This document shows positions 1 through 3,467 of a stretch of 64,000 bases of DNA, piece after piece (position 1 is the stretch's first letter; every line of letters begins with the position of its first letter). The stretch spans positions 1 to 64,000 of the forward strand of contig CACZHK010000012.1 of NCBI GenBank assembly GCA_902780915.1, written 5' to 3'. The notes under the pieces are model-generated. The model was not told where the DNA came from and ran no database searches. It was given only the letters and a program-made list of their open reading frames with translations. The stretch comes from Pseudoselenomonas ruminantium (GTDB lineage Bacteria; Bacillota; Negativicutes; Selenomonadales; Selenomonadaceae). The translations under genes and the position numbers were made by a program.

Positions 1-596
1 AGGTGTGAATCCACCAGGTCACCGGGAGTACGGCCCACCATAAGCACACGCCAGGCACCCAGGTGTTCCCCTGTAGGATTGACAATCCTCTCCGGTATGA
101 CCGACATCTTGGTGGAACCTGTCTCAGATCGCAATCTCATAGGCCATCCGTCAACTCCAAGACACGCCTCATGCACACCCAGATAAAGGTCATCGGCCGC
201 CTTGGCAATCATTATCGGCAGTCTTTCGCCGTTGGCATCGGACAGTTTCTCGGGGCCGATGTTATGACGCTCGCCGTTGTAATACCAGGCGGTGTAGTCA
301 TCGGCAAAATTGAAATCCGTATGTTCTCTGTATTTTTCGGGATACATTCCTGACGCTTTCTGCTCCGAATAAGTCTCAGTAGATGAAGCTGTATTCATTA
401 GTGGGGCGCATCTGAAAGCAACGCCCTCATTATAAACGCGCACCTCAAACAGCACATAGCCGGGATAACAGACAACCATCCTATCGGAATAGCTACCCTT
501 GACAACGGAACGTTTGCCCCAGACCGGAGTCCACTTATACTTGTTTTTCGTGGACCCGAACAAATGGCCTAACGGTTTCAGAGTAGTATATTTCAT
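1..596 (-). CDS. GH97-like glycoside hydrolase, N-terminal part only (runs off left edge)
   Basis: An open frame runs from an ATG at 596 leftwards to the window edge without a stop. The translation carries marks of the GH97 N-terminal beta-sandwich: a WTPVWG block about 25 residues in, then VRVYNEGVAFR, a VHEA block and finally AWRVLMVGRTPGDL, where the catalytic barrel would begin. GH97 enzymes are exo-acting alpha-glucosidases or alpha-galactosidases, usually secreted to the periplasm and most common in Bacteroidetes. Family members normally have a signal peptide and several dozen residues before WTPVWG. Here only about 25 codons precede it, and the in-frame upstream DNA reaches a stop within about 25 codons without a signal peptide. 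The gene is therefore probably 5'-truncated, or displaced from its true start. It may be a transferred remnant, or foreign sequence at a contig end. The family call is from recalled motifs and fairly firm; functionality is doubtful. Confidence 0.65.
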   Translation of the reverse strand, partial: MKYTTLKPLGHLFGSTKNKYKWTPVWGKRSVVKGSYSDRMVVCYPGYVLFEVRVYNEGVAFRCAPLMNTASSTETYSEQKASGMYPEKYREHTDFNFADDYTAWYYNGERHNIGPEKLSDANGERLPIMIAKAADDLYLGVHEACLGVDGWPMRLRSETGSTKMSVIPERIVNPTGEHLGAWRVLMVGRTPGDLVDSH

Positions 597-737: not shown

Positions 738-1034
738 TTGGATAATAAAAGAGAATATTATCAATATAATTGTAAACAATGCGGAATGTGTTGTAGGTAT
801 TTACATTTGATAGATGAAATGAAGGCGTATGATAGAGGGGATGGAGTATGTAGATATTTAGATGATGATAATAAATGCAAAATATATAATAATAGACCTA
901 GCTTGTGTAACGGAAAATATGTATACGAAGCATTCTATACACATATGTCAGTAGAGGAATATCATAATATGCTAGATGGATATTGTAAAGTTATAAGGAG
1001 CGGTGAATTTGAAAGATTACATCAAAATATTTGA
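738..1034 (+). CDS. YkgJ-type CxxCxxCC cysteine-cluster protein of the RiPP cassette
   Basis: A 98-residue protein beginning at TTG. It has an N-terminal CKQCGMCC motif and further cysteines in GVCRYL, NKCKIY and SLCNGK. This is the cysteine layout of the YkgJ / UPF0153 family, thought to chelate zinc or an iron-sulfur cluster. No enzymatic role is established for the family. The gene is AT-rich, unlike the housekeeping genes from 3.4 kb onwards. Its 3' end overlaps the start of the radical SAM gene by about 26 bases, so the two are likely translated together. I infer that it assists the radical SAM enzyme, for example in cluster supply or electron transfer, but the sequence does not prove this. 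The upstream ribosome-binding site (GGTAGG at 722-727) is weak. Confidence 0.7.
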   Translation: MDNKREYYQYNCKQCGMCCRYLHLIDEMKAYDRGDGVCRYLDDDNKCKIYNNRPSLCNGKYVYEAFYTHMSVEEYHNMLDGYCKVIRSGEFERLHQNI

Positions 1035-2055
1035 GGCTGCTGATGCTAAAAGAGCTAAGCGGGAAAAAGAAAATATAATAGCATTACAGAAAGAAGGACT
1101 TTATCCAAAGAAGTATTCTTTTCCCACGACATTACAGTTTGAATTGACTGGAGCGTGCAATTTAGCTTGTAAGCATTGCTATAATCGTTCTGGAGATGAT
1201 GATCGAATTAAAAATACAAGAATGACTGTAAATGAATGGAAAAGATTGGCTGGATATATAGTGGATAACGGAGGTATATTTCAGTGTATAATATCAGGAG
1301 GAGAACCGCTATTATTGGGAGATGGATTGTTTGAGATAATGGATATACTGCACGAAGATGGTACATCTTTTGTAGTTATAACAAATGGTATGCTATTGAA
1401 TGAAATAAATATAAAGAAGTTTAAACGTTATAGGTATTTTTGGTTCCAAATATCCATAGATGGTTCATCGGCAGAACTACATGATTCATTTAGAGGTGTA
1501 AAAGGATGCTGGGAAAAAACAGTTGCAGGGGCAATGGGGGTGACCAGTAGTGGAATTCCTCTCGTAGTAGCACATACGGTCATTCCTAAATCACTGCCAC
1601 TGTTAGAAGATATGGTGAAACTGGCCTATTCATTAGGTGCTGGTAGTATTATGATTGGCGAAGTGCTTCCGAGTGGAAGAGCAATATACAATAAAAATAT
1701 TATATTGAGTCATGAGCAGAGAAATTATCTTTATGAACAAATAAATGAGTTGTCTATTAAATATGCAGGACGAATAAGAATAGAGCGTTCAATGAATGTA
1801 CGTTCTTCTATGGCTCGTTATCTATCACAGCCAAATTGTGGGGGAATCATTAGACCTAATGGAGATTTTAGATTGGATTGTATGGTTCCGTTTAGTATTG
1901 GCAATGTGTTGGAAAGTTCACTGAAAGATATATGGGATAGAAGTGGATGCGATGCTTGGCATAATCCCCTAGTCATGGATTTTATAAGGTCAATAGATGA
2001 GGAAACACAACAAGGTGATATACTGAATCATGTAAGTGAGGATATAAGGATATAA
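1009..2055 (+). CDS. Radical SAM peptide-modifying enzyme with SPASM/twitch-like C-terminus
   Basis: A 348-residue protein. The radical SAM motif ACNLACKHCY lies at about residues 49-58, with Cys50, 54 and 57 ligating the [4Fe-4S] cluster that cleaves SAM. An ISGGEP block follows near residue 95. The C-terminal NCGGIIRPNGDFRLDC plus a GN..ESSLKDIW block resembles SPASM or twitch domains, which bind auxiliary iron-sulfur clusters in peptide-modifying enzymes. I place the start at TTG 1009, eight bases after AAGGAG (995-1000); GTG 1003 lies too close to that site. It sits between a cysteine-cluster protein and two small peptide genes flanking an RRE protein, the usual setting of a RiPP maturase. 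The modification is unknown. The predicted cores lack Cys, so a thioether (sactipeptide-type) product is unlikely. Epimerisation or C-C crosslinking are open possibilities. Confidence 0.88.
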   Translation: MKDYIKIFEAADAKRAKREKENIIALQKEGLYPKKYSFPTTLQFELTGACNLACKHCYNRSGDDDRIKNTRMTVNEWKRLAGYIVDNGGIFQCIISGGEPLLLGDGLFEIMDILHEDGTSFVVITNGMLLNEINIKKFKRYRYFWFQISIDGSSAELHDSFRGVKGCWEKTVAGAMGVTSSGIPLVVAHTVIPKSLPLLEDMVKLAYSLGAGSIMIGEVLPSGRAIYNKNIILSHEQRNYLYEQINELSIKYAGRIRIERSMNVRSSMARYLSQPNCGGIIRPNGDFRLDCMVPFSIGNVLESSLKDIWDRSGCDAWHNPLVMDFIRSIDEETQQGDILNHVSEDIRI

Positions 2056-2074
2056 GATACGGAGGTGGTGTACA

Positions 2075-2278
2075 ATGAAGGATAAGTATCAGAAACCTTT
2101 ATTGATAACAGAGGGGCATAGTGAAAGCGTTATTCCTGCTGGCTTAGCTGGTGCTGTAGCGGCTTTTACAGCTGGTGTTGCAGCTGGTGTTCAAGTAAAG
2201 AAAATGTTGAATGGTCGTGTTAGTTATGTCAAAAATCGCCCCCTGGTGGAAATCGAAGAGGTGAGTTATTCAATATGA
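2075..2278 (+). CDS. Putative RiPP precursor peptide 1
   Basis: A 67-residue peptide with a good ribosome-binding site (GGAGGTGG at 2061-2068). It begins KDKYQKPLLITEG, matching the general Y-x-x-P-x-L-(x)n-G leader pattern recognised by RRE/PqqD-like domains. The middle is VIPAGLAGAVAAFTAGVAAG, an almost pure Ala/Gly/Val stretch with small-xxx-small spacing that could form a membrane helix. A more polar tail follows, ending in EEVSYSI. There are no cysteines. The stop overlaps the start of the RRE gene (ATGA at 2275-2278). No double-glycine cleavage site is obvious, so where leader ends and core begins is uncertain. I do not recognise a named family; the call rests on size, context and the leader shared with the peptide at 2562. 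Confidence 0.68.
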   Translation: MKDKYQKPLLITEGHSESVIPAGLAGAVAAFTAGVAAGVQVKKMLNGRVSYVKNRPLVEIEEVSYSI

Positions 2279-2556
2279 TAGTATGGGATTGGTTGTGTGA
2301 GAAAAAACCTGTAGATATTTCTCTAAAAAAACGATTGGAAGGAGATGTAGCTGTAGTTTATGGTAAGGAGTTAGAAATATGCTATCTGAACAAGATAGGT
2401 TGGCAGATATTGGACAAAAGCGATGGTAATAATACATTAAACGATATTGCCAAATATTTATTGATGATATATGAAGTTGATGAAGATGAATTGAAGTGTG
2501 ATATTGTTGAGTTGATTAGAGATTTGCAGTGGAAAAGATTGATTAGATTGGAGTGA
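2275..2556 (+). CDS. PqqD-like RiPP recognition element (RRE) protein
   Basis: A 93-residue protein with the PqqD fold pattern. A hydrophobic strand region near residue 30 precedes YLNKIGWQILDKSDGNNTL, then IAKYLLMIYEVDEDELKCDI and a final helix LIRDLQWKRLI. PqqD-type proteins bind the leader of a precursor peptide and present it to the radical SAM enzyme. The gene overlaps the end of precursor 1 by four bases and is followed within six bases by precursor 2. This places the adaptor between its two likely substrates. A good ribosome-binding site (GAGGTGAG, 2258-2265) lies inside the precursor 1 gene. Whether it binds both leaders is inference from their shared motif. Confidence 0.8.
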   Translation: MIVWDWLCEKKPVDISLKKRLEGDVAVVYGKELEICYLNKIGWQILDKSDGNNTLNDIAKYLLMIYEVDEDELKCDIVELIRDLQWKRLIRLE

Positions 2557-2561
2557 TAGCT

Positions 2562-2780
2562 TTGGATAAATATATCAAACCATGTTTGGTGGCTCAAACT
2601 GGAATAAAGGGAATTATACCGTTGGCAGCTGTTGGTGCAGCTGTTGCTGGAATGTCAGCTGCACAATTAGCAGGAGTGGCTATGGCTAGTGGTTTAGCTG
2701 TTGGTATGGCTGCTACTTCAAATTCTAAAGGATCAAACGATTTTATATCCTATAGATCAAGGTTGATATTACAAGAATAA
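2562..2780 (+). CDS. Putative RiPP precursor peptide 2
   Basis: A 72-residue peptide read from TTG 2562, eight bases after GGAG (2550-2553); an in-frame GTG at 2553 overlaps the previous stop and is less likely. It starts LDKYIKPCLVAQTG, sharing D-K-Y-x-K-P-x-L with precursor 1. It continues into IIPLAAVGAAVAGMSAAQLA and a further small-residue stretch, then a polar tail with DFISYRSRLILQE. The only Cys is in the leader-like part. The two peptides look like diverged paralogues, or partners of a two-component product. A strong terminator follows at 2829-2860, so this is the last gene of the cassette. Confidence 0.66.
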   Translation: MDKYIKPCLVAQTGIKGIIPLAAVGAAVAGMSAAQLAGVAMASGLAVGMAATSNSKGSNDFISYRSRLILQE

Positions 2781-3424: not shown

Positions 3425-3467
3425 GATACCCATGTAAGTTCAAATTCTAAATATTGGAGGATTTTAT

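Follow-up and report, generated by a model that had tools for sequence, protein, structure and literature searches.

Positions 738-2780 of a 64,000-nucleotide stretch of Pseudoselenomonas ruminantium DNA (GenBank assembly GCA_902780915.1, contig CACZHK010000012.1, positions 1 to 64,000; hereafter the window) carry five genes that very likely constitute a horizontally acquired, stand-alone operon for two modified peptides of the ribosomally synthesized and post-translationally modified (RiPP) type. The genes lie on the same strand, overlap or follow one another almost without gaps, and encode a YkgJ-type cysteine-cluster protein, a radical S-adenosylmethionine (SAM) enzyme (rSAM), a 67-residue peptide, a discrete RiPP recognition element (RRE) and a 72-residue peptide. 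An rSAM core, a co-encoded RRE and short precursors that combine a conserved leader with a variable core are the general sequence criteria for radical SAM RiPPs, and all three are found here. Judged from its genes, the operon appears to work like a radical SAM RiPP system of a broadly known kind and to belong to no named peptide family. An original prediction, made from the letters of the window alone, had proposed such a cassette. Its gene order was confirmed by open reading frames (ORFs), Pfam scores and recurrence in relatives, and its RiPP reading is supported by the rSAM core, the tie between RRE and enzyme, and 93 YxxP peptides with variable cores.

Three gene pairs overlap or abut (YkgJ/rSAM, peptide 1/RRE and RRE/peptide 2; Table 1). 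The proteins that had been called YkgJ-type and PqqD-like both scored above the Pfam cut-offs of the respective models. For the enzyme, described as radical SAM/SPASM-like, the first half of the description held, by Pfam score and CxxxCxxC motif, whereas the second applied to shape and not to the usual cluster ligands; Pfam SPASM reached 19.4 bits, under its cut-off of 21.5. In the hidden Markov model searches that had been suggested as a check, no NCBIfam RiPP equivalog reached its cut-off (top rSAM match AhbD, 110 bits against a cut-off of 500), and neither peptide matched any Pfam or NCBIfam family. PADLOC returned just weak viperin-like rSAM matches. The earliest in-frame start of peptide 2 is GTG 2553; we preferred TTG 2562 because the leader spacing M-x-K-Y-x-K-P holds family-wide. 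The five-gene unit is closed by the hairpin at 2828-2861, in agreement with the strong terminator predicted originally. The automatic terminator scan did not report this hairpin because A and T runs sit within its stem. A promoter scan performed near chance (15 found versus 10.7 expected, standard deviation (sd) 3.3).

Table 1 Features of the peptide operon and its surroundings in the window (aa, amino acids; MFE, minimum free energy).
Feature	Position	Strand	Details
YkgJ/PF03692 cysteine-cluster protein, 98 aa, TTG start	738..1034	+	Pfam CxxCxxCC 27.4 bits, cut-off 23
Radical SAM enzyme (putative peptide maturase), 350 aa, SkfB-like fold, degenerate Twitch region	1003..2055	+	Pfam Radical_SAM 82.7 bits, cut-off 29.5, 4e-23
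Precursor peptide 1 (putative), class A (before RRE), 67 aa	2075..2278	+	Leader MKDKYQKPLL, core GLAGAVAAFTAGVAAG
Discrete RRE (PqqD-like, PF05402), 93 aa	2275..2556	+	Pfam PqqD 35.8 bits, cut-off 23.4, 1e-8
Precursor peptide 2 (putative), class B (after RRE), 72 aa, TTG start	2562..2780	+	Leader MDKYIKPCLV, core GIIPLAAVGAAVAGMSAAQLAG
Terminator hairpin, 15-bp stem, 4-nt loop	2828..2861	.	MFE -22.9 kcal/mol, z -8.5, 0/200 shuffles equally stable
Right limit of acquired DNA, just 5' of M50 peptidase gene	3456..3467	.	Start of alignment to four sister species

A scan of genome contigs with the single protein as query yielded nothing; with an alignment as query, a scan of 84,980 species retrieved the enzyme family. 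Relatives at 35-68% identity came from Anaerovibrio lipolyticus An883, Centipeda periodontii DSM 2778, rumen Selenomonadaceae, Synergistota, Spirochaetota, Planctomycetota, a deltaproteobacterium and Clostridia, and more distant ones from an Aenigmarchaeote and a Holosporaceae metagenome-assembled genome. Complete cassettes were found in five phyla. Among 189 genomes of the bacterial family, the enzyme was present in 23 (E < 1e-40) and the RRE in 22, 21 of which also carry the enzyme. The apparent exception, G068 with two RRE matches, fits the contig-edge loci L095 and L096, where the rSAM is truncated, a link that we infer from matching counts.

Enzyme alignment and neighbourhood counts were based on 43 rSAMs. 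The order YkgJ-rSAM-peptide(s)-RRE-peptide(s) is kept across Selenomonadaceae and Synergistota, while Spirochaetota, Planctomycetota, a deltaproteobacterium and Natroniella show rSAM-peptides-RRE with YkgJ at one end. An RRE adjoins the rSAM at every locus except the clade L075/L078/L080 and L076, which is cut by a contig end. YxxP peptides flank approximately 35 of the 43 enzymes, so that homologues are not consistently found without the small ORFs. YkgJ adjoins 30, with two further loci ending too early for a call. In Synergistota, the cassettes continue into an LRAT-domain protein (L070:9736-10266, L073:6357-6890, L074:9784-10329) followed by WYL/WCX regulators, and DUF1232 and SHOCT proteins recur nearby.

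The precursor set comprised 93 candidates from 36 cassettes, collected mostly by an automatic rule, with six added by hand and four false positives removed. Tyr and Pro of Y-x-x-P occur in 93/93 as a condition of the search itself. Not imposed were the position of the Tyr, which falls at residue 4-6 in 89/93, and the residue before the leader Pro, which is Lys or Arg in 69. The leader reads Y-x-x-P-x-[IVL], with a hydrophobic residue ([IVLMA]) at +5. As background, YxxP lies within reach of the start in 12 of 1244 small ORFs outside cassettes. At least two peptides are encoded by 34 of the 36 cassettes, and in 25 they flank the RRE gene.

Beyond the leader, the 93 peptides have Ala/Gly-rich cores (Ala 20%, Gly 10%, Cys 0.4%) with no conserved aromatic residue, Cys or repeat motif. 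As predicted originally, the two cores in the window contain no Cys; the class B peptides of Synergistota end in LEPC and hence have one each. Since a core Cys is not conserved, thioether chemistry is unlikely. G-x-x-x-G occurs 99 times in the cores compared to 49.9 in shuffled cores (sd 6.6; 0/300 shuffles), an excess inflated by kinship, and a Gly spacing of three is depleted (22 versus 51 in shuffled cores). By sequence, this spacing is a glycine-zipper pattern.

The small ORFs are conserved as coding sequence in relatives. Peptide 1 shares 61% identity with its Anaerovibrio counterpart (proportion of nonsynonymous differences, pN, 0.26) and yields no ratio of nonsynonymous to synonymous substitution rates (dN/dS) because synonymous sites are saturated. 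Peptide 2 shares 62% with a dN/dS of 0.22, and all measurable peptide pairs range from 0.08 to 0.47. The core of peptide 2 is common to other class B peptides of Selenomonadaceae. The class B peptides of L045 and L048 (at rSAM +2226 and +1750) reach 100 residues, with very long Ala/Gly cores that look as if internally expanded. A possible precursor in Aenigmarchaeota (L087:4837-5037) combines AYMGPTV with an Ala-rich core and overlaps the start of the mechanical rSAM ORF.

The RRE family profile matches the solved PqqD structures 5sxy/3g2b and the lasso protein TbiB1 (5v1u). Discrete lasso-type RREs bind the leader motif [Y/W]xxPx[L/V/I/A/F/Y] (PMC13381572), and the RRE-Finder study mentions, only collectively, discrete RREs of the lasso type that neighbor radical SAM enzymes (PMC7470986). 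By analogy, we infer that the RRE here binds the YxxP leader and offers the core to the rSAM.

The cluster-binding cysteines C52, C56 and C59 (CxxxCxxC) are invariant in all 43 rSAMs. The closest solved enzyme, both by sequence (E 1.8e-27) and by the fold of its AlphaFold model (pLDDT 95.3), is the sporulation killing factor sactisynthase SkfB (6efn; Z 27.7, 281 residues aligned, root-mean-square deviation 2.8), which shares the rSAM barrel and the Twitch-shaped end; the enzyme is also related to PqqE/MftC. In SkfB, the auxiliary cluster is held by C351, C385 and C387, and C333 is conserved too (PMC6231123). Only one of these four candidate positions is kept across the family, the C351 equivalent C293 (40/43 rSAMs), and the Twitch end is otherwise degenerate. 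The three exceptions form the clade L075/L078/L080 (Lachnospiraceae, Roseburia, Clostridium algifaecis), in which C293 is lost (RIDG), RRE and YkgJ are missing and a second rSAM lies just upstream. SkfB further differs in its fused RRE and in a conserved core Cys, neither of which is found here; the operon shows neither the core Cys nor the full set of SPASM/Twitch ligands of sactipeptide systems.

Taken together, we propose the following mechanism. The discrete RRE would bind each precursor by its Y-x-x-P-x-[IVL] leader and hand it to the rSAM, which would cleave SAM and abstract a hydrogen from the hydrophobic, Cys-free core. A redox-neutral C-alpha epimerization could follow, with C293 as hydrogen donor. 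YkgJ, which probably binds a [4Fe-4S] cluster, would support the rSAM or add a second change. The products would probably be membrane-inserting glycine-zipper peptides, which might act as a pair. Epimerization is favored by the loss of the auxiliary-cluster ligand set, the lone C293 and the small aliphatic cores, and we tentatively regard it as the most likely single modification, with a probability short of even. PoyD-type epimerases have the SAM cluster only and one strictly conserved Cys, and the epipeptide epimerase EpeE has been proposed to return the hydrogen through C223 (PMC8326336). PoyD, which acts on proteusins, may resemble the system in its single conserved Cys and its lack of further clusters; small hydrophobic cores are common to both, and EpeE has a related fold (Z ~19.5). 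The nitrile-hydratase leader of the PoyD type is missing here except near a distant relative, no RRE is fused, and the conserved Cys is placed otherwise than C223 of EpeE. In that distant case, Peptococcaceae BICA1-7 (L088:7929-12389), we noted by eye two distant rSAM relatives near nitrile-hydratase-type (NHLP) proteusin-like precursors with DLDKVAGG-like ends.

Several observations weigh against this interpretation. For the operon as a whole, YxxP peptides are absent at 8 of the 43 rSAM loci (one truncated at the end of its contig, another close to a different leader type), no exporter or protease was seen in the operon, as already remarked in the original prediction, and YkgJ relatives occur in unrelated operons (riboflavin; TerB/DUF1232). 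For epimerization, C293 corresponds in the alignment to one of the cluster ligands of SkfB rather than to C223, the epimerase donor, and C95, kept in 36/43 rSAMs, is another candidate hydrogen donor. With its two extra cysteines, C279 and C316, the enzyme in the window might still hold part of a cluster, though neither is present in its nearest relative (68%). Finally, GxxxG suits an alpha-helix, so that few D residues would be tolerated.

The strongest alternative keeps the same RiPP operon and assigns to the rSAM an oxidative reaction, namely C-C bond or cyclopropane formation, desaturation or decarboxylation, with the YkgJ [4Fe-4S] cluster taking up the electron in trans in place of the lost auxiliary cluster; we rate it as a serious candidate that still falls short of an even chance. 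In its favor, YkgJ accompanies 30 of 43 enzymes and its presence clusters on the rSAM tree (6 changes versus 11.4 shuffled). A 27-row alignment of YkgJ contains eight invariant Cys (CxxCGxCC..GdGxC..C.IY..RP..C..C), related to the FliB motif that binds [4Fe-4S] (PMC8598068). A precedent is TvgB, an rSAM that turns Val of a TVGG peptide into cyclopropylglycine (PMC9062424) and likewise acts on a small-residue Val/Gly peptide; the cassettes here have no TVGG repeats and other gene partners. The absence of a conserved aromatic, Cys or repeat motif from the cores speaks against an oxidative change, as do the loci without YkgJ (L031, L032, L051, L052, L082, L087), where the auxiliary ligands are missing all the same, and the rSAM is therefore not always dependent on YkgJ. 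These loci also make it less likely that YkgJ is a universal stand-in for the lost cluster. At L082:7810-8010, a zinc-ribbon protein containing several pairs of CxxC takes the usual place of YkgJ immediately upstream of the rSAM; a close relative occurs in L071, beside two YkgJ genes.

YkgJ could also be a second tailoring enzyme, an N-methylase that uses SAM on peptide Lys residues, which we consider unlikely. Its PF03692 membership connects it to FliB, which uses a [4Fe-4S] cluster bound by CX4CX3CC to methylate Lys of flagellin (PMC8598068), and Lys or Arg occurs in many peptide tails. No tail Lys is invariant, and YkgJ relatives are found in operons without such peptides. FliB is larger than a YkgJ-type protein, and the protein encoded here consists of the cysteine domain alone, a 98-residue stand-alone domain within a peptide operon that shares with FliB the CxxCxxCC-type motif and a probable [4Fe-4S] cluster. 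Its AlphaFold model (pLDDT 87.6) had no meaningful fold match in the PDB. In several rumen Selenomonadaceae, a riboflavin operon includes a YkgJ gene flanked by ribD and the gene for riboflavin synthase, as named by eye (L131:3068-3346, L133:2871-3173, L135:2753-3028). In several Selenomonadaceae another YkgJ comes after a large protein that contains an AKETMDEA-type segment, with TerB-like and DUF1232-like genes in the vicinity (L130:2918-3181, L137:2649-2918, L139:3081-3317). These relatives weaken the idea of a YkgJ dedicated to the peptide pathway and, as we argue, point to a general Fe-S function that this operon has recruited. In the operon, YkgJ may serve in electron transfer, in a second modification or as an accessory.

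The remaining explanations fare far worse. A redox cofactor pathway like that of PQQ or mycofactocin, with the peptide as a mere scaffold, would account for the PqqD-like RRE, the PqqE/MftC-related rSAM and the missing exporter. It is very improbable given several divergent precursors per cassette, neither a conserved Glu-Tyr nor a C-terminal Val-Tyr, and NCBIfam scores far below their cut-offs (PqqE 82 versus 381, MftC 79 versus 265, PqqD 25.6 versus 46 bits). Slimmer still is the chance of a lasso or linear polyphosphorylated peptide (LPP) system with its other enzymes encoded elsewhere. The lasso RREs (TbiB1, FusB1) share with PqqD and the protein here the RRE fold family, and with the operon the YxxPx[L/V/I] leader; LPP systems (PMC13381572) likewise combine a discrete RRE, YxxP leaders and several precursors with variable ends. 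The partner of the RRE here is an rSAM in every family genome with an RRE, and up to the hairpin the operon contains no lasso cyclase or B2 leader peptidase, in line with the original prediction, and no HprK kinase, NTP transferase or SpI peptidase; LPP systems have these three and an exporter, and lack rSAM and YkgJ. Equally slim is the possibility that the small ORFs are ordinary holin- or toxin-like membrane proteins beside an unrelated rSAM, since their hydrophobic Ala/Gly-rich segments come with a YxxP leader on all copies, an intervening RRE and recurrence in several phyla.

The failed sactipeptide, PQQ/mycofactocin, lasso and LPP tests agree with the original view that the cassette fits no nameable class. 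Main texts in the open-access PMC literature and curated HMM libraries contained no description of the gene set, and no open-access paper described YkgJ with radical SAM RiPPs. A distinct RiPP class present in five phyla, with paired glycine-zipper membrane peptides, an rSAM without its own auxiliary cluster plus a separate YkgJ, and a modification new for a Twitch-type enzyme, is conceivable, though we regard this full combination as doubtful. Each cassette is genetically well defined and unites an RRE, the enzyme and several natural precursors into a compact substrate set for an SkfB-fold rSAM family without auxiliary-cluster ligands. This makes it testable what SPASM/Twitch-type enzymes do once the auxiliary cluster is lost, and whether a small Fe-S protein substitutes for it. 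Rumen Selenomonadaceae and rumen Synergistota commonly carry such cassettes. Because cultured strains also have them (Anaerovibrio lipolyticus An883, Centipeda periodontii DSM 2778, Natroniella acetigena), a direct search for the products would be feasible.

The genomic context indicates that the operon is horizontally acquired. The window starts at the edge of contig C12 in a 3.16-Mb genome, and the GC content at third codon positions is 0.20-0.33 in the five genes, consistent with the AT-richness noted originally, compared to 0.66-0.70 in genes after 3468. Four sister species (G165-G168) have a nudix gene immediately 5' of the M50 peptidase gene, the counterpart of window 3468, and the alignment of the window to them starts only at the right limit given in Table 1. 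The left partner of this junction (recN-nudix) is near the end of contig C29 in the genome of the window, followed after nudix by ~670 bases that are not alignable to the sister species. As the nudix-M50 junction is intact in the sisters and broken here, it was split by an insertion containing the cassette and a partial GH97 gene. YkgJ and RRE profiles found no second match anywhere in this genome. Phage DNA gave no match to the cassette, viral contigs no close relative (best 33% identity over part), and a plasmid search a single distant match (28%). The possibility of an Rpn-type gene common to the downstream regions of the cassettes in the window and in Anaerovibrio was checked and not supported. 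The GH97 glycoside hydrolase gene, of which the N-terminal part is present, lies at window 3-596 on the - strand and is cut by the contig edge.

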